Below, piece after piece: positions 37,542 through 63,644 of a DNA stretch of 64,000 nt (positions are counted from its first letter, which is position 1; every line of letters begins with the position of its first letter). Origin of the DNA: Monosiga brevicollis MX1 (taxonomy: Eukaryota > Opisthokonta > Choanoflagellata > Craspedida > Salpingoecidae); contig NW_001865039.1 in NCBI RefSeq assembly GCF_000002865.3, forward strand, positions 951,850 to 1,015,849. Reading direction: 5' to 3'. Under the pieces are notes generated by a model. The model was given only the letters and a program-made list of their open reading frames with translations, was not told the origin of the DNA and made no database searches. Position numbers and translations under genes: made by a program.

Positions 37542-40500
37542 ATGGCCAAGTACGCATCGATGCCAGAACCCGACCGCTTATTCCAGGTCAGACCAACCAA
37601 CCTCCTGACTTCGATTTCACCCTCACCGCACCCCGCTGTGTGTGGCCCGCCATGTGGCGCTGGGGCGTGCACAACGCACCGCTTTGACCGCTTGACCCTA
37701 GGTTGACATCCAATGCTATTCTGCTGGCCGTGGTATGCCTCTTGGTCGGAGGCTACCTGGGTGTCACCATCTCCACCCACTTTGCCTGTCACACCCATCG
37801 CGCGACACCTCAGGTACAGTCAGGGCGCCAGCACCCATCTCAACCCAAACGAGGCGCCCTGCTCCTGCTCCGCGCCCTCTCATAAACCTTTGGGGCCCAG
37901 CATCTTCGCTCAGCTGTTCGCGAAGCACAACCTGCCCGTGCCGATCCCGCCCCTGGCCTCGAAGATCGCGGCATAAATCAGGACGTCATTGCTGATGTGT
38001 GTGACAAGTACCCAGTTATCATCCTTGATCAGACCGCCCCGTCTTGATGGCGCGATACTAACCCTAACTGCCACCATCACCCCATTCCCAGGCCGTTGGG
38101 GCACTACTCCATTTGGAGCAGCAACGCATGGCACGTGGGGACCACGACGATGACGACCCTGCCGTAAGCCCCCCTCCCCACGCCGGGTGCCTCGCGGCTG
38201 GCTTTTTGTCTGCACTCGATCCATCTACATGCTATCATGACACTGACAGTTGATCTCTGATCATCCCAATCGGCAGATACAAGCCATTGCGGATGAGTTG
38301 ATGCAAGAGGGCTACAAGGCAAATCCTCCCACAGCTCGTCAACCCTCTGCTCACCTCCCGCAGGCACAAGCCTCCCATCATCAGCATCCGCAACATGGTC
38401 AGGCCTGCTCGTGTTAGGCTCCGCCATAACCGCGACGTTCTGCCCGCTTCCGCTCGTCGCCTCACCTCAGCCTCCCTTGCGGAATGATGTAGTCGACCCC
38501 ATTGTACACGTCATCAAGCGAGAAAGCAGCAACAACAACCGGGCTCAAGCCGTATCCAATGTACGAAATAACACGAATGATCATCAATCGACGGTCTCGT
38601 CCGTGATGCCTTGACTTCTCTAGCCCTCTGCCTCATCACCGGGACTGCCTGGCTTTTTTTTTTTTTCGGTCGCTCGACCATCTCTGCAGGCGCTGGACCA
38701 GCTCAATCTCCACGATATGCTTGAAGCTCCTGTGGAACATGCCAGTTCGTCCCTCAACCAGTTTCAAGCCGGCATCTGCGTGATGGTGGTGGTCTGGCTC
38801 GCTCTTTGAGCTACCTAACCACATATGTGTCTGATCGCCGCTCTGATTCCCCTCATCATCAGATGGACAAGCCGTGCACGATGCAGCGATTCGACATCCA
38901 CCTGCCACCCAGCCTAAAGACATCCCCGATTATCTCCTCAACACAATGAAGGACGAGCCGCCCTATGGCACCCCGCCCGATGAGGTTTGCCTCTGGTCCT
39001 CAGCACGTGTGATAGCTTGGCCAGTAAGGATCACAGCATCTGTTGCTCACAACTTGGCCTCCCCACGTCCGCCCGTTCATCCCACAGACTGCCAAAAAGG
39101 ACCCAAGCATCTATTGTTTTGTTCTCACTACTCCTAAACGCCACGACCCCAAGGCCATCGCTGTCAACAACAGGTAGTAGTAGAGTCTGTATGTCTCTCC
39201 ACCAATGCAGTGCGTCAGCAAAGCACCGCGCCACCTCATCAGCCACCCCCGCTTTTGGCCACAGCTGGGGTCTACGCATGGACCGGCTCGACTTTATGAC
39301 TTCAGAGCCATACCCGGGCCTGAACACGGTTCTACTGCGTCTTCGCAATGAGAGCCGTAAAACCCTCTGGCCCAAAATCAAGTTGGTAATCAGTTTCCAA
39401 TGTTTGAGCAAGCATGGCGCACTTTCAGTCACAGAATAGCAAACCCACCAAGCCCAACGCAGCTGAAAGCAATGCCCTAGGCATGATATGATTGAGAGCT
39501 CTCATTGGTCGATCCGGCCACATGACACGTAGGTTGGCTTGGCTTCACACGTATCAACATCACCTCGACGATCACGACTGGTTCATGAAGGCCGATGACG
39601 ATACCTTTGTCGTGGTCGACAACCTGCGCCAGTTTCTCGCCCAATACGATCCCAATAAACCTCACTTCTTTGGTGCGTTTGAGTTTGAAAGCATTGCTTC
39701 ACCTTTGTCATGCCCCCCCCCCCCCCCNNNNNNNNNNNNNNNNNNNNNNNNNNNNNNNNNNNNNNNNNNNNNNNNNNGAAAACCTGGGCCAGTTTTTTGC
39801 CCAATAGGATCCCAAAAAACCCCCCTTTTTTGGGGGGTTTGAGTTTAAAAACATTGTTTCCCCTTTTTTAGGGCCCCCCCCCCCCCCCCCCCCCGCTTTC
39901 TCTTCCTGTTCTGCTGCGCCAAATCCCAGTGACCATGGCAACTGGGTATGTGCATAGGCCACCGGTTTCTGCTTCACCGGGGCCAGGGTCCTCAGGCTGA
40001 GCTGTCGTACTACTCGGGCGGAGCTGGCTATGTACTGAGTCGAGCTGCGCTGAAGCTGCTGGGCGACAACGCTGCAAAGGCACTCACAAACAACGGGTTG
40101 GCAGAAGATGTCGAAATGGCGCGCAGCATGCTCAAGGTCGGCGTAACCTGCGAGGACTCGCGGGACGCCGAAGGCCACGAGCGCTTCTTACCCATGAACA
40201 TTGACAATATGCGTACGTCAATGCCTGTTTCCATCACCATTCCGTGTCGTCATCGCGGCCCTTGTTGTCGCCTTTTCGGCACTGAACTGTCATGCTCGCT
40301 CGCTTGCTTGCACCGCCTTTGCAGGTTACCGTTACAAATTTGCCACCAAACCCAAGTTTTGGTATTGGCGCTACGTCTACTTCCCGCCCAAGGATGGACT
40401 GGTCAGTGCTCTGTGCCGCCGCACCGCGGCCAGCATTCTTCTTTTAGTCTGCCGGACAGCAATCTCCTCTGACACTGGCATCCGTTTGCGTAGCAATGCT

Positions 40501-53833: not shown

Positions 53834-55756
53834 TCACATTTGGAAAAGGCCAGCCTTTTTAAGAATATATGTGGCAGCGATCATGGCAGCAATCATGGCG
53901 CCCGAGGCAACCCCAATCACCAGATCAAACTTGGAGTTGGAATCTTCGTAGCCATTCTTCAGGTTCATGCCTGCATGTCGAATTGGGCAGGCCAGGGTTG
54001 AGCTTTGGGGTCGGTCGAAGCGGAAAGAATGGTCGATCTGATGCTTGTATAAATGGGTATGTATGTGAATGGATGTGAAGGGGTGTGCATGAACGCTGGT
54101 AAATGGAGCGTGGCGTGGCGTACCGAAAAAGCCAGCAATTAGCGCGCCGCCGGCAAGAATGGCCGTGAGCACATTGAGAAACATGCCGATGGCGAGAAGA
54201 CGATTCCGCATGGTATCAAGTTTGAAAGTGACGGTCGTTTCGGAGAACTCGATGCGTTGAGACACGAGGTCGAGTCGCATGAGGAGGTCGGAGAGGCGTT
54301 GGAGGTAATCTTCCATCTGCGCCTCTGTGATTTCGGTGAGCTCACGCTTGCGTTGCTCATCTTGCATAGCATCAGTAAACGTGAGCGGTTCCTGCACGAT
54401 GCGGGTCAACTGCATGAAGAGTAGTTCATTGTCGTCATCCAACACATCGTCAATGGCTCGGTGTAGGCGCTGGGCTTGCATGATCTGCGTACGAAGCTCG
54501 GCCTTGTGGTCACGCAGTTTTTCCAGCTCTTGAGAAGCGCTTTGCTTGCGAATGGCGCGCAAGGTGGATGTTGAGTTGTCTTCAATGTTGCGGACACGAT
54601 CACTGAGCATCTCGATACAGCTGGTTAGCAGTACGTCAATCACGGCCAGCTCAAAGGGCAACGAGCCACTCTCAGAAATGGGCAAGCAATTCAGAACGCG
54701 GCCGAGCGCTTCGTCGGCGCCATCGCGCAGCAACATGCGCAGCTCGCGTCGCGTGACAATAGCATGATAAGGCCCCATTTTGACCAAAATAGCGCCGCGC
54801 CGGACCCGAATGAAGGGCTCTGAAGATGTGGCTGTGGCTGTGTCTAGCTGGCGCATGTCCCGAGAAGTAATCTCGATACGCTGTGGCACGCCATCGGTGT
54901 CCTTGCCTCCAGCCCCCTGGGCTGATCGTCCCCCGGCCCGGGAGAGCGGGCTAGAAATCGTGGGGGCGGTGGGGTCTGCAGGAGCGGACGCTACGGAGAG
55001 GGTAGGGTTGGCTGCACCAGTCGGAGGTGCCAAGCTAGCGCCCAGCGGCATGGTGGCCTCATTGGCAGCGGCCGCGGCGGCTGCATTGATGGTACGAACG
55101 CGCTTCTGAGAGCGGTGATTCTCTGCCATGAGCGATGCATCGTTGTCGATGCAGCGCTGAATGTACCGCCTCAGCTTGGTGCGAGACATGAATTCGCGGC
55201 GATAGTGATCATCCTCGGGATGAATGACGGCACAATGGATGATGGCACCCATGCCATTACCATTGCTGGACGAGTCATTCTGTCGTTTGGAAGCTGGTAT
55301 GGCGGTCCAAGGCGCAGCAGGTGCCACTTCAGCATCTTGCACCACAACACTGACGGGGCGGGTGGCTGGTGTCCCTTGCTCATCCTGCTCATGAGGAGGG
55401 CCGTTGGCTGTGGGAAAGTCCCAGGTTATGTTGGCCAGGGAATGACTGAGGCCATGCCCCGTTGTATCTGCTGCTGTGGGTCCAAAGTCGCCGCTGCTTG
55501 CCAGCTCCTCCTCATCCATGCTTCCCACAAAGGAAAGCGGCCTTTGTGAGCGCTGGTGGTGTGCGGTGGATGGACTAGCATCACCACCGTCCTGTGTGGT
55601 CGAGGTAGGCGGATCAACAACGTCCACAACGCTCTCAAAGGGGCCCTCACGGCTTTGATCCTGGCTGCTGTCCGCTGAGGGAAGCGTAGTGACTCGTGTT
55701 TGAGGACTCCTTAGGATGGTGTCCACATCCAGTGTCATGCGCTCTTCAGCCGCCAT
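53834..55756 (-). CDS. CorA/MRS2-type magnesium transporter
   Basis: CorA/MRS2/Alr channels carry Mg2+ into mitochondria or across the plasma membrane. One 1.6-kb exon starts MAAEERMTLDVDTILRSPQT (55754-55756) with a long Ser/Thr/Ala-rich N-terminal region. The cytoplasmic domain follows: RIEITSRDMRQLDTATATSS, AILVKMGPYHAIVTRRELRM, LPFELAVIDVLLTSCIEMLS, MEDYLQRLSDLLMRLDLVSQ. The first membrane helix is NRLLAIGMFLNVLTAILAGG to IAGFFG. A 150-bp intron (GTACGCC donor, about 53973-54122) interrupts exactly between FFG and MN, completing the selectivity motif GMN as FFGMNLKNGYED. A second helix follows (LVIGVASGAMIAAMIAATYI). The long N-terminal tail and YGMN-like filter fit MRS2; whether it is mitochondrial or plasma-membrane is unknown. 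Confidence 0.9.
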   Translation of the reverse strand: MAAEERMTLDVDTILRSPQTRVTTLPSADSSQDQSREGPFESVVDVVDPPTSTTQDGGDASPSTAHHQRSQRPLSFVGSMDEEELASSGDFGPTAADTTGHGLSHSLANITWDFPTANGPPHEQDEQGTPATRPVSVVVQDAEVAPAAPWTAIPASKRQNDSSSNGNGMGAIIHCAVIHPEDDHYRREFMSRTKLRRYIQRCIDNDASLMAENHRSQKRVRTINAAAAAAANEATMPLGASLAPPTGAANPTLSVASAPADPTAPTISSPLSRAGGRSAQGAGGKDTDGVPQRIEITSRDMRQLDTATATSSEPFIRVRRGAILVKMGPYHAIVTRRELRMLLRDGADEALGRVLNCLPISESGSLPFELAVIDVLLTSCIEMLSDRVRNIEDNSTSTLRAIRKQSASQELEKLRDHKAELRTQIMQAQRLHRAIDDVLDDDNELLFMQLTRIVQEPLTFTDAMQDEQRKRELTEITEAQMEDYLQRLSDLLMRLDLVSQRIEFSETTVTFKLDTMRNRLLAIGMFLNVLTAILAGGALIAGFFGTPRHAPFTSVHAHPFTSIHIHTHLYKHQIDHSFRFDRPQSSTLACPIRHAGMNLKNGYEDSNSKFDLVIGVASGAMIAAMIAATYILKKAGLFQM

Positions 55757-56223
55757 AGTGGCTGCGTGCAGGGAGCCCGTGCGTTCTCTCAAGCTCCCAA
55801 CAGCCCCGACGCAAACAAGAAGAAGCGGCTCTACCAGGACGAGCTTAGCCCTCGTACGCCTTGAAAAGCCACTCCAGAAACACCAACACGTAGCTCCCCC
55901 CAAGCGTCCCACTGCAAATGGCTGCAGCCTCTGCCCGGAGAGCACAACACCTGATTGTCCGTGTTCGTGTTCCAGGACCAGCCCTCTACACTCTAGCCCA
56001 GCACTGCCAAAACGTCTCCGTGTGTCCTCCCACACACATCCGCGCACACACACGAAATCAGCAAAAAAAAAAAAAAAAAAAACCGTCACACACACACACA
56101 CACACACACTTGCACATGTGTGTGCGTTATGCGAAAGACAACAACAACAAGAGGCGATTGTCAGAATATTATGTCAGACGATATTGTGGCATTTTTGTTT
56201 GTTGTTTGCAAAAAAACAAGATC
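55757..56223. promoter_or_regulatory. Bidirectional promoter region with A and CA tracts
   Basis: Head-to-head gap of 467 bp between the CorA-type gene and the kinase-like gene. It contains an A-run (56063-56081) followed by a CA run (56088-56109). Confidence 0.6.
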
Positions 56224-58639
56224 ATGTCGCGAGCGGCAAAGCAGCGGATTCTGGCGGCTGGGGCGGCCTGGTATGCCGAGCAGGAGGGGCGGGGTGTGGA
56301 TACTCAAACCCGTGAGGATGATGCTAGCGGTGGGTATCAACTTGGCTTACATGGGGGTGGGGACAGAGCTCAACCGCTCTCTCCACCTCTCGGCGTCTTC
56401 CTGCCAACCTTATAGTTCTCACATGCCACCGGGGCTGAACACCAACAAACAGTGCCCACAGAACTGCACACCCTGGCCGATGCACTGTATGCACAGATGG
56501 AGAAGACGGATCCAACACTGGACACCCTGTATCAGCCGCCCTCCACATCGCTGGTAGGCACTGGCTCAGTCTGGTGTCGATTTAAACATGGCAATGGCGG
56601 CTCGCTCATGCCACACCCTGCTGCAGAGCACGGCAAGCTCGACCTCGGAGGGACAGGATCAGAGTGCATCCGAGGGTAAGAAAAAGTACAAGTGGAGCAC
56701 GTCGCTTGATCGACAGTACAAATTTGATGCGCGCCGTGCCTACATGCGCCGCGCGCTCGGCGATCTTGATTGGTCCAAGGGTATCATTGGTGTCGAGCGC
56801 TCCGCCGCTGGTGCTGAGGTTGGTCGTGCGCGAGGAACAGGGGCTTTGTTGACCTTGAGTGGTGTTGGCGTCTGTAACAATCTGGCTGCCTACTCAAGCT
56901 TGTGCCACTGCTCTTGGGTGGAGATGCAGGGTGTTTTCTTCATCGAGACACAAGAAGGTTCCATGGTTCTTAAAGGTTCGCGTAACCTAGCGGCGGAATG
57001 CTTCGCCTCCATGTTGGCAGTGCGCCTTGGCGTCTATAGCCCCCCCTGGCGCGTGATTGCCATCAAATCGGCGTACGTCGAATGGTCTCCATACTATTTC
57101 AGATACTGCACAGCATGCCCGACCGTCTGATTTTTCGTTTGCATTCGTGTCTGCCATGTATCAACCTGCTGTTTTCAACGTCCAGTGAGGGTCGAAGCAT
57201 GCTGCACCACCTGGGTAACCTTGACCCCATGGGCCGTGTCGGCGTCAACATTGGCTCCCAGGTAAGGCTGTTTGGAGATTAGCCAAAAATCTCCCGGTCA
57301 TTGTGACGGAACTGACATTGGTGGCGCTTTTTGGACAGGTATTTGTAGTACTGAAGGGCTTTGCAGCTGGTCAAAATCTTAGCGAAATTGGAGCCGAGGG
57401 CATGGCAGCCATTTTCGGGCGAGTACGTGCTCTGTTCTGAACCCTTCCCCCACCCCTTCCCGACCCCACCTCAAGTAGATGCTGCCTCACAATTCGCCAT
57501 GTTTGTTGGAGTACAGACTGGCTTGACCCCTAGCGGTGAGCAGCGCGTGGCTGAGCTGGCACGCATGCTGATTCTCGACATTCTCATTAACAATGGGGAT
57601 CGTCTTCCCCTTTTATGGGATAACCGGTGCGTGTTCGAGCCCTTACAACTGCCAAGTGTCGCAGGCCCGCTCGTATTAGCCCTGCATCCTTTTATCGCCT
57701 TGCCCAGTCGTTTCCTTTGTTCGCTTTGTGCATCCTGTTTTGCTTGTATAAGCCAGCGCACTTGTTGCTTCTGCTCTCCACGCGCGTCTTTGTCACGGAT
57801 CTCCTTGCGCTTGTTCTTCTTAGCGGGAATCCGGGCAACACGATGTTGGCTCGCTCCAACGGTCATGTTATTGCCATTGACAACGCCATCACGGCCATCA
57901 ACGCCAGCGATTACCCAGAACAGTACCAACAATACCTGGACAAGGTTGATCTGTCTCGTGCCAGATGCCTTTCATCTTCATTTTTGAGCCACAGATGCCG
58001 GATTGGTTAACCCTTTTCCACGCCACGATCTTGACCTTAGGTGCGGGAGTTTGCAGCCAGCTTGACCGAGGCCAACACAGCGGCGCGGATTCTACCAGCT
58101 TGTGAGCGAGTCCGCTCGAAAATCAGGTGCAGACGCTACCCATGCCCCCCCACCCCTTGCTAGTTTGATTTTGTTCGTTTGTTCTTTGGCTTTGGTCTTC
58201 TTCTGGTCGCTGTGTTTGCCTTTTGCTTTCGTTTTGCTTTCTCGGCTGATGGACAACCATGACCAGGGGTGCTCATTGGTAACCACGCACTCACGCGTCT
58301 TGACGCTTGCCCATGCTCAGCGAGTTTACCGGCTATGATCTTGGCACTACCGGCACGCTCAGGCTGCAGGAAGCTCTGGTCTCCGAGGTGGGCACGACCA
58401 TCTAACTGGCATTTCAGCACCCCAGGCTTTACGATACAAACCAAACTCACCCTTCCTGTGTTGTCTCCAAATGGTAGCTGCGCGCTTTGCAAGAGGCAAA
58501 TGCTGTTGATGCAGATGAGCTGCGCGCATGGCAAGCCGCGCTGAGTGCCGTGTCTCCTCCCCTCGTTGGTCTCGGCGCAGTGAACATCGACTTTGTCCTT
58601 GATGTCTGGACTGCCCTGACTCATGCCAGCTCCGACTAG
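56224..58639 (+). CDS. Actin-fragmin-kinase-like protein
   Basis: The conserved core matches the actin-fragmin kinase catalytic family, an atypical protein kinase fold first known from Physarum, where it phosphorylates actin bound to fragmin. The start MSRAAKQRILAAGAAWYAEQ (56224) leads to PTELHTLADALYAQMEKTDP (56450-56520) and KKYKWSTSLDRQYKFDARRA. Then comes the catalytic start MQGVFFIETQEGSMVLKGSR with the probable ATP-binding Lys, NLAAECFASMLAVRLGVYSP, VFVVLKGFAAGQNLSEIGAE, LARMLILDILINNGDRLPLL with the catalytic Asp-Asn pair, and GNPGNTMLARSNGHVIAIDN with a metal-binding Asp. Helical C-terminal exons follow, ending TALTHASSD at 58639. No kelch repeats follow, unlike Physarum AFK. The exon 1-2 junction is ambiguous (two phase-compatible donors near 56300-56327). 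Confidence 0.8.
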
Positions 58640-58763: not shown

Positions 58764-58803
<40 letters not shown>

Positions 58804-59063
58804 ATATCGATGAGAGATTCACAGCTCTCCAACTGAACTCCACTCGACTCCACACTGAGCGTGGAGGGGGGGATCGGGGGTGCGGTTGCGGTTGCGGTTG
58901 CGGTTGCGGTTGCGGTTGCGGTTGCGGTTGCGGTTGCGGTTGCGGTTGCGGTTGCGGTTGCGGTTGCGGTTGCGGTTGCGGTTGCGGTTGCTGTACGTCT
59001 TGGATTGGGTTACAACAGAAGAGGAGAAAACGGGCATTGCAGAATAAAAAGACCGCTCCAAGG
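58640..59063. promoter_or_regulatory. Upstream region of the SIDT gene with two repeats
   Basis: About 420 bp between same-strand genes. It contains a CA run (58769-58799) and the TTGCGG hexamer array (58881-58991), which ends only about 70 bp before the SIDT start codon and so probably lies in its 5' UTR or core promoter. Confidence 0.6.
58881..58991. repeat. TTGCGG hexanucleotide array, about 18 copies
   Basis: A perfect TTGCGG repeat over about 111 bp. The plus strand has a GG pair every six bases, giving potential for two-tetrad G-quadruplexes. All six frames across it are open and translate as dipeptide repeats, so the long open frames here are artefacts of the repeat. Confidence 0.97.
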
Positions 59064-62000
59064 ATGATGGTGCACAGAAGCACCACGCTCCGCCGCACCT
59101 GCGGTCGGTTTGTGCTTGCGCTGGGCCTTTTCCTGTTGTTGTGGGGGGACCTGGCTCGAGCACAGACGACTGAAGCCATTCGCTTGAGACCGAATGTCAC
59201 CTACGAGTTTACGAACACCACAAATCCCGCCACCGTCTTGTACTATCGCTTCGAGTATAATAGCAGCGAGGGCTACGCACCGCGGATCGCCGCGCAGACG
59301 ACCCGTCAGATCGAGGGTGGGTCACGCACTGCCTTCTGTGAAGACGACCCACAAAGCACACTCATCCCTGACGCGCCATCACCGTGTGTAGGTTCAGTAG
59401 GGTTTTCCGTGGTCCAACCGTGCACTCTCAACTCGTGGGGTGTGCCCCTTGCCGCCACCAGCTCCTGCTCTTACTTTCAAGGTCTGCCTCCACTCACCTC
59501 AGAAGGCCCAGGCTCGATTTCGCCGTCGTTGCGAGCCCACTCTTGAATCTTGGCCTGCACCCGGGAAACCCGCGACGCTGAGCTGGCTCCGGCTCCCCGC
59601 ATGTATCATGCGAACAATCTCTCATGGTGTGGCGCTTTGCTTTCTAGTGCGCCGTGAAATCTGTTCGATTCAAAGCTGCATGGACAAACAGCCCGACTAT
59701 GCCCCCTTCAGTCTCGCCATTACCAGTTTTTTGGCTGAAAGCTTCAACCTCACCATCGAGCTGCTACAACGCATGCTGACCGTCGGCCAGACACTGACAA
59801 TCGATGTCACACCAAACTCCCCCACCTACTTTCAAGTAACTTTGACGCCGTGCCTCGCAGTTTGATAAACCCTTCAGTGCTCTGAATCGTTCTGGTGCAG
59901 CGCACCAGATCCTCATGCTTCTTGCTTCTGCGCTCCTTAGTTTCAGTTTACGGATGACATTGACTTTGTGCAGATCGAGCTCAACAGCGATGGCAAGGGC
60001 AAGGAGCTCAAAGCCGTTGCTTCAATTCAAAACTCAAGCTGCCCCCTTTATGACCTCCCCAGCAACGTGCGCTCTACTGGAAATGCATATACCCTTTTGG
60101 CTCGTGATTATTGGCCTGCTGACCACGTGCTATCGACCACCCACCCCGTGCGTGCGTTCTGACCTTCACCTAGATTAAATTTGTGGGCTTTCATCAAGAG
60201 TTTACGGAGAAGGGCACCTTCTATATTCGACGCGATGACTTTGGGCCTTCCATCTTCCTGGTTTTACTCGTTGAGCCCAACGAAGAGGACGGCGCCTGCA
60301 ACGAGAATGCGCCCAAGTCCATTGAGATTAGCGTGCATCGCCAATATGAGCTGAGCCACTTCTATCCCGCCCTGCTCTTCCTCTCCATGATGTATTTCGT
60401 GGGACCCTATCTCTTTACCATGGGCATGATCGGATGGGAGGCGGTCTCGGGCCAGGGCTTCAGCGAGCCCACGTATCGCTATATCAACGGTCGCTTTGAA
60501 GCCGTTCGCACGGCAACCCGTGGCTTGCTGCGCACACGCGTGGAGCCTAGAGATGCCAGCACGCATCTACAACTGTCACGCAATGCTCATCGCGGCTACG
60601 GCACCGCCACGGACGGCTCCGAGGCGCCTGCTGCTGCCACTGGGTCCGCTGCCATGCTTCATGCTCTGCGCGACATTGAATCAGAAACGGATCCTGAGCT
60701 CATCACAAGCCCACCGACGGCCGAGGAGCTAGAGGAGTCGCAGTCTGCCTCGACGGCGGCAGCGTCAGCATCGGACGGTACAGCAGTGGAAGGCTCGACC
60801 AAGCGACGACACGTCTCTACCAGCATTGTGCCGTACATCGGTGTGCGGGGGCTGGAATATTTTGACCGGCCCGAATTTACAAAGGACTGGGTCAACCAGC
60901 GCGGCTGGCGTGGGCGCTTCTTTCGAGATCGCGAGCATTTGTTTGTGAACCTTCTGACGCGCAAGCTGCCAGTCGAGCAGGAAAAGAAATTTGCACAATA
61001 CCCCCTATTCATGGTGGTGGTCGTACTCTTCTATGGTCTGCCCGCCATTCAGTTTGCCTTTGAGCAGTTGTCGGCCTTTAATGAAGTCCGTCATCCTGGT
61101 AGAAACCAGATCGGAGATACCCGTTGCTCGATCTTGGTCCCTGCCCAGCTAAGTGTTTTTCTTTTGCCACTGGTAGGGAGACCAGAACCGATGCTTTTTC
61201 AATTTTCGCTGCGTGCATCGTGTGTGGAATTTTTTTGCATTCAACAACATCATTAGCAACGCCGGGTTCGTGCTCGCAACCATGCATATCAAGGCACACG
61301 GCCCGCAACTGGCTGCACCTCACTCTTTACTTGCGCACAATGGCCGCTCCACCTAGTTATGTGACCCTAGGTTGTCTGTTTCTGTTAATTGTGCGGCGCC
61401 GGAGCTTCCACTACCAGCTCGCACGAGAGCAGCAGGAAAGCCCCAAAAAGCCCGACCACGCCTTTGGCGTGCCGCGTCATTGGGGCCTCTTCTTCTCTGT
61501 AGGCCTAGCCATCGTTGCCGAAGGCATTTTCAGTGCCTGTTACCACACGTGTCCAGGCGAACAAGTGTTCCAGTTTGACACTGCAATGAGTGCGTAGTAG
61601 TTTGGCTCCTCTCAAAAAAACAAGACTGATGCACTGTCACCTCTGCTTTGCCTTGAAGCGTTTGATGACTGCATCTGATATGGCCTGCTCGCTTCTCTCG
61701 TGCGTCGTGTCCGCAGTGTACGTCATTTGTGCCATGACGGGTTTGGCGTTGTTTCAGCGTCGCCACAGCGACGTGGTTTGTCGGCCCTATGCGTTTTTTT
61801 TGGCCATGGCCCTCTACGTCTTTGTGGTTGTCTTGGGTAAGAGCGTGGTTGCTGATGCCCCTTGCTGGAAAACGACATGATATCAACTTATGATAGAGTC
61901 ACCCCAGTCGACGGCCTGACGGAAACGATCTGTCGTGTGTGCTCGCTGTGTAGGCGTCTACATTCCATCGCTGTGGTTCTATGTTGTGATTATCCTGCTT

Positions 62001-62935
62001 GCGGTCCCACTCTCCTACTACCTGGTGATCCAGATTTACTACCTCGGCGTTTGGACGTGCTCTTGCCAGTGCGAGAAGCCCGTGTTACCTTGCAGCAGTG
62101 TGGGGGATGAGGTCATGGATGATGGCGATGCTTGGTCCATCGACTCGGATGTTCCGTTCTCGCGCGCACAGCATCAGCCGCATGATGGGATCCGGGGTGT
62201 TGTGCGGCCCTGTCGCTATTGCCTTTCTTGTGGCTTTCGCATGCATTCCCTGTGGCCCCGCCGTCGTCGCCAGGCCGTTATCATCACCATTGTTCTTTGC
62301 CTTACCTGGGCGGTCTTGTTTGCCAGCGTGGCGCTCAACATTTCTGATCGACCCACAGTGTTCTTGGTCCTGGCCATTCTCAACTTGGGAGCTTACGTCA
62401 GTTACTACATCGTCAACAAACTACGACACGGCGAGCGGTTGACCTGGCTCCCAGCAAGTGCCCTGGGTGGCAGTCTTTTGGTTTGGGTGTTTGCGCTCTA
62501 CTTTTTTATATGGCAGCAGTCCAGCTCCTTCTACTATGACGCTGCGGGCAGTCGAACTTTGAACGAGGTGCGAGGCCTGGAAGAATCGGATCGGCTGCAT
62601 GCAAACGCCTGCATCATTGTCCCATGTAGCTTCTTTTGGGCGGGCGTGTATCTCATGCTTGTCACCCTGTCATGCTTCCTTTTGGCCGTATATTCCAACT
62701 CTGGCAGCCCTGTATTTTGCTGGACGTGTTTGACAACCACGATGTTTGGCATTTGCTGTCGGCCTACGGGCTTTTCTTCCAGGCCGTGGCCCTGCTAACC
62801 TTGTACGGGACTGCTGTGTTATGACGTGGGTGAATCGCGCGCTGTGCCCATGACCGCTCACCCTTTGCTTTGCCTGCTTTTCCTAGGGACGACGACCTCA
62901 TCCTGACGCGCCGTTTTGAGATTCATGTTTTCTGA
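59064..62935 (+). CDS. SIDT/SID-1 family multi-pass membrane protein
   Basis: SID-1 of nematodes takes up double-stranded RNA; the related SIDT1/2 and CHUP proteins are linked to RNA or cholesterol transport. The start MMVHRSTTLRRTCGRFVLAL (59064) gives a signal peptide ending near ARAQTT. The extracellular domain has N-glycosylation sites (NVTYEFTNTTNPATVLYYRF). The first membrane helix is HFYPALLFLSMMYFVGPYLF (about 60355), then a long Ser/Ala/Glu-rich loop, YFDRPEFTKDWVNQRGWRGR, and YPLFMVVVVLFYGLPAIQFA. The family core follows over short exons: FNNIISNAGF, GCLFLLIVRRRSFHYQLARE, GVPRHWGLFFSVGLAIVAEG with FSACYHTCPGEQVFQFDTAM, YYIVNKLRHGERLTWLPASA, CILLDVFDNHDVWHLLSAYG and DDDLILTRRFEIHVF. 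The conserved Ser, His and Asp of the CREST-like metal site (SACYH, DNHDVWH) are present. Intact to the stop at 62933-62935. Confidence 0.9.
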
Positions 62936-63384
62936 GCGAGTCTGAATTGGTGTATGCGTGTGTGTGTGTGTGTGTGTTTATTGTGTATTATGAGCACGCG
63001 TGAATTTATCCCGAATTTTAGGGTAATAAACCTCTAATTTTTTTGTCATGAAATGTAGTCACAAAGTCTTGCCGTCGTACGATGTGTGTGTGTCTTTGTG
63101 TGAGCATGTTGTAGACCTCGTATCATGAAATCATGTGTGTACCGGCGTTTCGGGTTTTGCATCAGTCCTTGACGGTGACGGTGCCTGCAAAAGTAACCCA
63201 ATTTAAGAGAACATTATAACCGGTGAAAAGTACAATGATATTGTCAGGCTCCAGCACGTCTGGAGGCCGTCTTTGGGTTGCGAGGAAGCGCGTAGGTTTG
63301 AGGAAGCGTTTTGAGAGAGGTTTGAGAGACGTCCGTCGGAGCGGAGCGAAAGCTTTGGTGGTGTCTTGAGGTCAATTGAACCAG

Positions 63385-63471
63385 CTGCGGTCGGCAAGCA
63401 TTCACAGTGACCAGACCAGGTGCACCGTTAGAATAGCTGTAGAGTCGCTCAATCCCGAGGATAGGGAAAGT
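63385..63471. repeat. 87-bp direct repeat, copy 1
   Basis: Identical to 63535-63621, offset by 150 bp. It begins CTGCGGTCGGCAAGC and ends GAGGATAGGGAAAGT. Confidence 0.93.
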
Positions 63472-63532
63472 CACAAGAGAGCAGAGCACACAGGAGAGCA
63501 AGGGGAAGACAGAATGGCAGAGGGCTTGACGT

Positions 63533-63644
63533 ACCTGCGGTCGGCAAGCATTCACAGTGACCAGACCAGGTGCACCGTTAGAATAGCTGTAGAGTCGCTC
63601 AATCCCGAGGATAGGGAAAGTGCAACTCGTGCCCGACCGCAGGT
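63533..63644. repeat. 87-bp direct repeat, copy 2, bracketed by 12-bp inverted repeats
   Basis: The copy at 63535-63621 is flanked by ACCTGCGGTCGG at 63533-63544 and its exact reverse complement at 63633-63644, making a 112-bp unit with terminal inverted repeats. Copy 1 has the left arm (one base different) but no right arm. Confidence 0.85.

Follow-up and report, generated by a model that had tools for sequence, protein, structure and literature searches.

The gene and its surroundings

The window analysed here, a stretch of 64,000 nt, comes from Monosiga brevicollis, in agreement with the preliminary description, which had called its source a probable choanoflagellate. An intact gene of the SID-1/SIDT type occupies positions 59064-62935 of the forward strand, with an ATG at 59064 and a stop codon that ends at 62935, so the complete gene lies where it had been placed before. 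Ten exons and nine introns were delineated (Table 1), and the 2844 coding bases, including the stop, specify a spliced product of 947 residues. All nine introns are GT-AG, measure 84-166 nt, and have consistent phases that leave one open frame. Exon 1 begins with two adjacent ATGs, at 59064 and 59067. When the locus is read in six frames, the landmarks of the SID-1 family are spread over three raw frames, as expected of a gene with introns.

Exon ends were placed by hand at GT-AG sites that preserve the frame, partly guided by likeness to known SIDT stretches. The junctions fall at residues about 139, 202, 244, 548, 578, 655, 695, 900, and 932, all nine inside stretches aligned to SIDT1; because they were picked in part by their likeness to SIDT, this alignment is only partly independent as a check on them. 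Two observations are independent of this guided choice: five unspliced stretches match the Pfam family SID-1_RNA_chan (PF13965) by themselves (best E 1.1e-18), and all junctions are GT-AG and in phase. An alternative donor/acceptor pair exists for intron 4 (61086-61176) and would alter a few residues before C554. The scatter of the protein over three frames of raw sequence could also be the mark of a pseudogene or a mis-assembled relic, but the frame shifts sit at the GT-AG introns of consistent phase described above, and the protein aligns with SIDT1 in three stretches, reaching the last residue; we therefore consider such a relic extremely improbable. The intactness of the gene suggests that it may be under selection.

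Table 1. Exons of the SID-1/SIDT-type gene (window positions) and the RNase III frame found elsewhere in the genome.
Feature	Position	Strand	Content
Exon 1	59064-59481	+	Start codon, signal-peptide-like segment, first part of extracellular domain
Exon 2	59648-59835	+	Extracellular domain; aligned to SIDT1
Exon 3	59941-60066	+	Extracellular domain (CPLYDLPSN); aligned to SIDT1
Exon 4	60174-61085	+	End of extracellular domain, first membrane segment, long loop unaligned to SIDT1, start of core
Exon 5	61177-61265	+	Core, with loop cysteines C554 and C560; of all junctions, the one at the 5' end of this exon is the least certain
Exon 6	61357-61589	+	Core; E633, SACYH (S637, H641), and D652 of the zinc site
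Exon 7	61717-61836	+	Core membrane segments
Exon 8	61954-62567	+	Core membrane segments; longer Cys-rich loop (residues about 730-802), unaligned to SIDT1
Exon 9	62708-62802	+	DNHDVWH (H911, H915), S918
Exon 10	62887-62935	+	C-terminus and stop; the protein ends DDDLILTRRFEIHVF, counting the last bases of exon 9
RNase III frame	Contig C13, 907-1875 within excerpt L006	-	The genome's only Ribonuclease_3 match

Several features surround the gene. A short way upstream of the start codon, TGCGGT is repeated in 18.5 perfect copies (58881-58991) and a (CA)n run occurs (58767-58799), and downstream of the gene there is a 96-base direct duplication (63376-63471 and 63526-63621; 96% identical, start-to-start spacing 150). 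Two frames of the neighbouring upstream gene (56588-57987, + strand) match PF09192, the catalytic domain of actin-fragmin kinase, barely over the cut-off (26.3 and 25.2 bits vs 24). A frame for an MRS2-like magnesium transporter (PF22099, 62 bits) lies at 53834-56107 on the - strand, with an intron near its C-terminal end suspected by eye. The 50 N at 39728-39777 represent an assembly gap or a withheld stretch. No RNA gene was detected in the 64,000-nt window at Rfam gathering scores.

Family membership and conserved residues

The spliced protein matches PF13965 with 409.3 bits (E 3.6e-122; cut-off 28.7 bits), far beyond chance. Matches among PDB chains at E 0.01 comprised 18 distinct sequences, every one of them SIDT1, SIDT2 (some as fusions), or C. 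elegans SID-1, with best scores of 301.5, 295.8, and 114.9 bits, respectively. Both searches uphold the earlier assignment to the SID-1/SIDT family. The Pfam family Ceramidase matches the core weakly (E 3.9e-4, 20.3 bits), below its cut-off of 32.5 bits, and a Herpes_US9 match (E 0.12, below cut-off) was taken as chance. All five genome matches to PF13965 that were listed (seven candidates scored) fall at the locus described here, and no second copy of the family appears among the matches listed. A scan of viral contigs for relatives of the gene gave one pattern match, and none was confirmed. A SID-1 member in M. brevicollis has already been published (Pei et al. 2011); since the species is the same and only one locus was found, the gene at 59064-62935 is very probably that member.

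Alignment to SIDT1 extends over residues 121-287, 494-729, and 803-947 (54.2, 166.7, and 89.5 bits), and residues 1-120, 288-493, and 730-802 are unaligned. The first aligned stretch corresponds to the SIDT1 ectodomain, residues 34-120 lying outside it. A putative signal peptide, consisting of a hydrophobic segment (13-31) followed by ARA/QT, was recognized by hydropathy and by eye. The preliminary description had proposed both a signal peptide and an extracellular domain; the second is backed by the alignment of residues 121-287, and the first stays a reading from hydropathy and inspection. Not counting the signal, a hydropathy scan with a threshold of 1.5 gave eight hydrophobic segments, a lower number than the 11 helices of the reported SIDT2 structure; two of the three aligned stretches, 494-729 and 803-947, cover the core.

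All five residues of the CREST zinc site are present by alignment to SIDT1 (S637, H641, D652, H911, and H915), as are E633, Y640, and S918. The sequences SACYH and DNHDVWH, previously noted as retained, were located at residues 637-641 and 909-915. Four loop cysteines, C554, C560, C643, and C902, align with cysteines of SIDT1, and two disulfides have been described in the loops of SIDT2 that correspond to these positions. According to Liu et al. 2024 (PMC10879482), C. elegans SID-1 has Gln and Gly at the positions of Glu555 and Ser803 of SIDT1; here, E633 and S918 represent the SIDT1 state. Together with the bit scores, which are no tree, these two residues point to a probable position on the SIDT/CHUP side of the family rather than on the SID-1 side. 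The weaker score against SID-1 may reflect fast evolution of SID-1.

RNA interference genes and the ectodomain

The genome search for Dicer and Argonaute that the preliminary description had proposed was run over 39,470,161 bases in 57 contigs, a possibly incomplete assembly, as a six-frame, exon-by-exon profile search in which the best candidates were scored. The same search recovered the SID-1 gene, with its nine introns, in five pieces, which speaks for its sensitivity. No Piwi candidate was found in the genome at E 0.001 or at E 10, and the positive control matched 1 of 14 genomes (Methanocaldococcus jannaschii). The genome had no match to PAZ either; the PAZ control matched 0/14 genomes, so that this absence proves little by itself. 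RdRP gave no match in the genome at E 1 and Dicer_dimer none over its cut-off, the control being 0/14 genomes for each. Three weak Dicer_dimer matches were obtained below the cut-off of 23.7 bits at E 1 (E 0.0941, 0.43, and 0.941; 17.9, 15.8, and 14.7 bits), in frames that by eye contain nothing Dicer-like.

Ribonuclease_3, whose control matched 8/14 genomes, had a single match in the genome. It lies in an uninterrupted frame (343 aa open, 322 aa from the first ATG) that combines a single RNase III domain with a dsRBD and contains neither PAZ nor helicase; among solved structures, its best matches are chains of Drosha, bacterial RNase III, and Dicer. The assignment to M. brevicollis is based on a STING locus on contig C53: a 20-base guide sequence published for STING of this species (Woznica et al. 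2021, PMC8592570) has one exact occurrence in the genome, against none for the reversed pattern, both published STING primers also match this locus exactly, and the frame between them matches PF15009 with 127.4 bits and PF23417 with 76.8 bits.

According to Richter et al. 2018 (PMC6040629), Argonaute and Dicer had been regarded as missing from choanoflagellates since neither M. brevicollis nor S. rosetta appeared to have RNAi genes, yet S. dolichothecata and further choanoflagellates retain both. Five independent losses were inferred for each of the two genes, possibly overestimates, and species with only one of them could, according to the same authors, reflect non-canonical RNAi genes. The premise that choanoflagellates lack Dicer and Argonaute thus holds for the present genome but not for the group as a whole. 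Because other choanoflagellates keep both genes, the absence of RNAi here is a secondary loss, and retention of the SIDT gene after that loss favours an RNAi-independent role in the present-day lineage. The ancestral role is not settled by it, and the earlier argument from missing RNAi to an ancestral function in lipid or cholesterol handling does not carry through. The presence of the family and the loss of RNAi in M. brevicollis are both known already; no paper that pairs the two was found in the searches made here of open-licence literature.

The ectodomain (residues 34-305) is acidic, containing 19 K+R, 33 D+E, and 2 His for a net charge of -14, and over the stretch aligned to SIDT1 the charge is -10, as against -1 in SIDT1. 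KGKELK is the sole 6-residue window of the ectodomain with three or more K/R/H. C. elegans SID-1 has been reported to bind dsRNA via basic regions that include the loop H134-R139, regions that SIDT1 and SIDT2 reportedly lack (PMC11194109), and the ectodomains of human SIDT1 and SIDT2 have been reported to bind small RNA at low pH (PMC10770124). No basic patch resembling the H134-R139 loop was found in a scan of the ectodomain by 6-residue windows. The acidic ectodomain argues weakly against strong, SID-1-like binding of dsRNA at neutral pH.

Two RNA-based functions have to be weighed against these data. The protein might import dsRNA in the sense of SID-1 and feed an RNAi pathway, cryptic or non-canonical, in which the single RNase III would act. 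The one gene with RNase III and dsRBD would suit such a pathway, and Richter et al. 2018 (PMC6040629) allow for non-canonical RNAi genes where only Argonaute or Dicer remains. The genome, however, has no Piwi or PAZ match (the latter with its control at 0/14), the RNase III frame has a single RNase III domain beside the dsRBD and lacks PAZ and helicase, and a counterpart of the dsRNA-contacting loop was not found, all of which make an importer of this kind very unlikely.

M. brevicollis eats bacteria, and the protein could instead serve in RNA salvage or release, moving bacterial or cellular RNA across the membrane of the food vacuole or lysosome for nutrition or degradation, with no need of RNAi. 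Membership in the SID-1/SIDT family is in keeping with this function, a similar role having been proposed for SIDT2 in RNautophagy, and so is life as a bacterial feeder. The acidity of the ectodomain, both overall and relative to SIDT1, speaks against it, as does the structure of SIDT2, reported as having no discernible path for nucleic-acid conduction, even though its authors still suggest a possible transporter. On balance we regard RNA salvage as unlikely. Published cultures of M. brevicollis were fed with bacteria (Woznica et al. 2021, PMC8592570).

Proposed function and comparison with known family members

The reading that we favour, and hold to be reasonably probable by analogy with characterized relatives, is that of a SIDT/CHUP member: a membrane protein that would cleave a ceramide-like lipid in a zinc-dependent manner, maybe with sterol handling, and that would have no role in RNAi. 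Zinc binding, hydrolysis, substrate, and location are predictions made from human SIDT1/SIDT2 and from relatives in C. elegans. The protein would reside in the plasma membrane or in the food vacuole/lysosome and hold a ceramide-like lipid in a cavity within the membrane. This lipid would be cleaved slowly at a zinc bound by the three histidines H641, H911, and H915 together with D652 and S637; the protein might also handle sterols while taking no part in RNA interference.

Given that all residues of the site are present, lipid hydrolysis is the activity that can be carried over from relatives with the best support. SIDT2 has been reported to hydrolyse C18 ceramide, a double His-to-Ala mutant being inactive, and ceramidase activity has been measured in SIDT1, SIDT2, CHUP-1, and SID-1, with SID-1 the highest (Liu et al. 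2024, PMC10879482). As SID-1, a dsRNA importer, has the highest ceramidase activity, RNA transport is compatible with an intact zinc site. The genome also has a separate gene for an alkaline ceramidase (204.6 bits), so that the SIDT-type protein, if it is a ceramidase, would not be the only one. Matches to the CRAC sterol motif in the protein (6, overlapping) were below the mean of shuffled sequences (12.07) and give no evidence for sterol binding.

The literature still debates whether members of the SID-1 family act as RNA transporters, as lipid enzymes, or in both ways, and an organism that has a SIDT gene but apparently lacks RNAi offers a clean test case for an RNAi-independent function. 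We tentatively suggest that M. brevicollis, having lost RNAi, retained a SIDT protein whose ectodomain may have turned acidic and lost strong RNA binding, with the zinc lipid-hydrolase site complete. If this is true, the lipid role of the family would be separable from its RNA role. Genome editing has been published for M. brevicollis (Woznica et al. 2021, PMC8592570).

The protein shares with human SIDT1 and SIDT2 the domain order, the alignment of the core, the zinc-site residues, the loop cysteines, and a C-terminal VF. It differs from SIDT1 in its more acidic ectodomain stretch and in two longer unaligned intervals, residues 288-493 (273-417 in SIDT1) and the Cys-rich residues 730-802 (654-688 in SIDT1). 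C. elegans SID-1 belongs to the same family and has a zinc site of matching residue types (three His, Ser, and Asp), but it aligns in only two stretches with much lower similarity than SIDT1 and SIDT2, and its basic dsRNA-binding regions are not seen here. Another relative, compared here by its published descriptions, is C. elegans CUP-1/CHUP-1 (TAG-130), which has the full set of CREST residues, is described as making no contribution to systemic RNAi, and resembles mammalian SIDT more closely than SID-1 does (Pei et al. 2011). CUP-1 has been linked to cholesterol uptake, and its lack is reported to leave systemic RNAi unaffected (PMC3313951).
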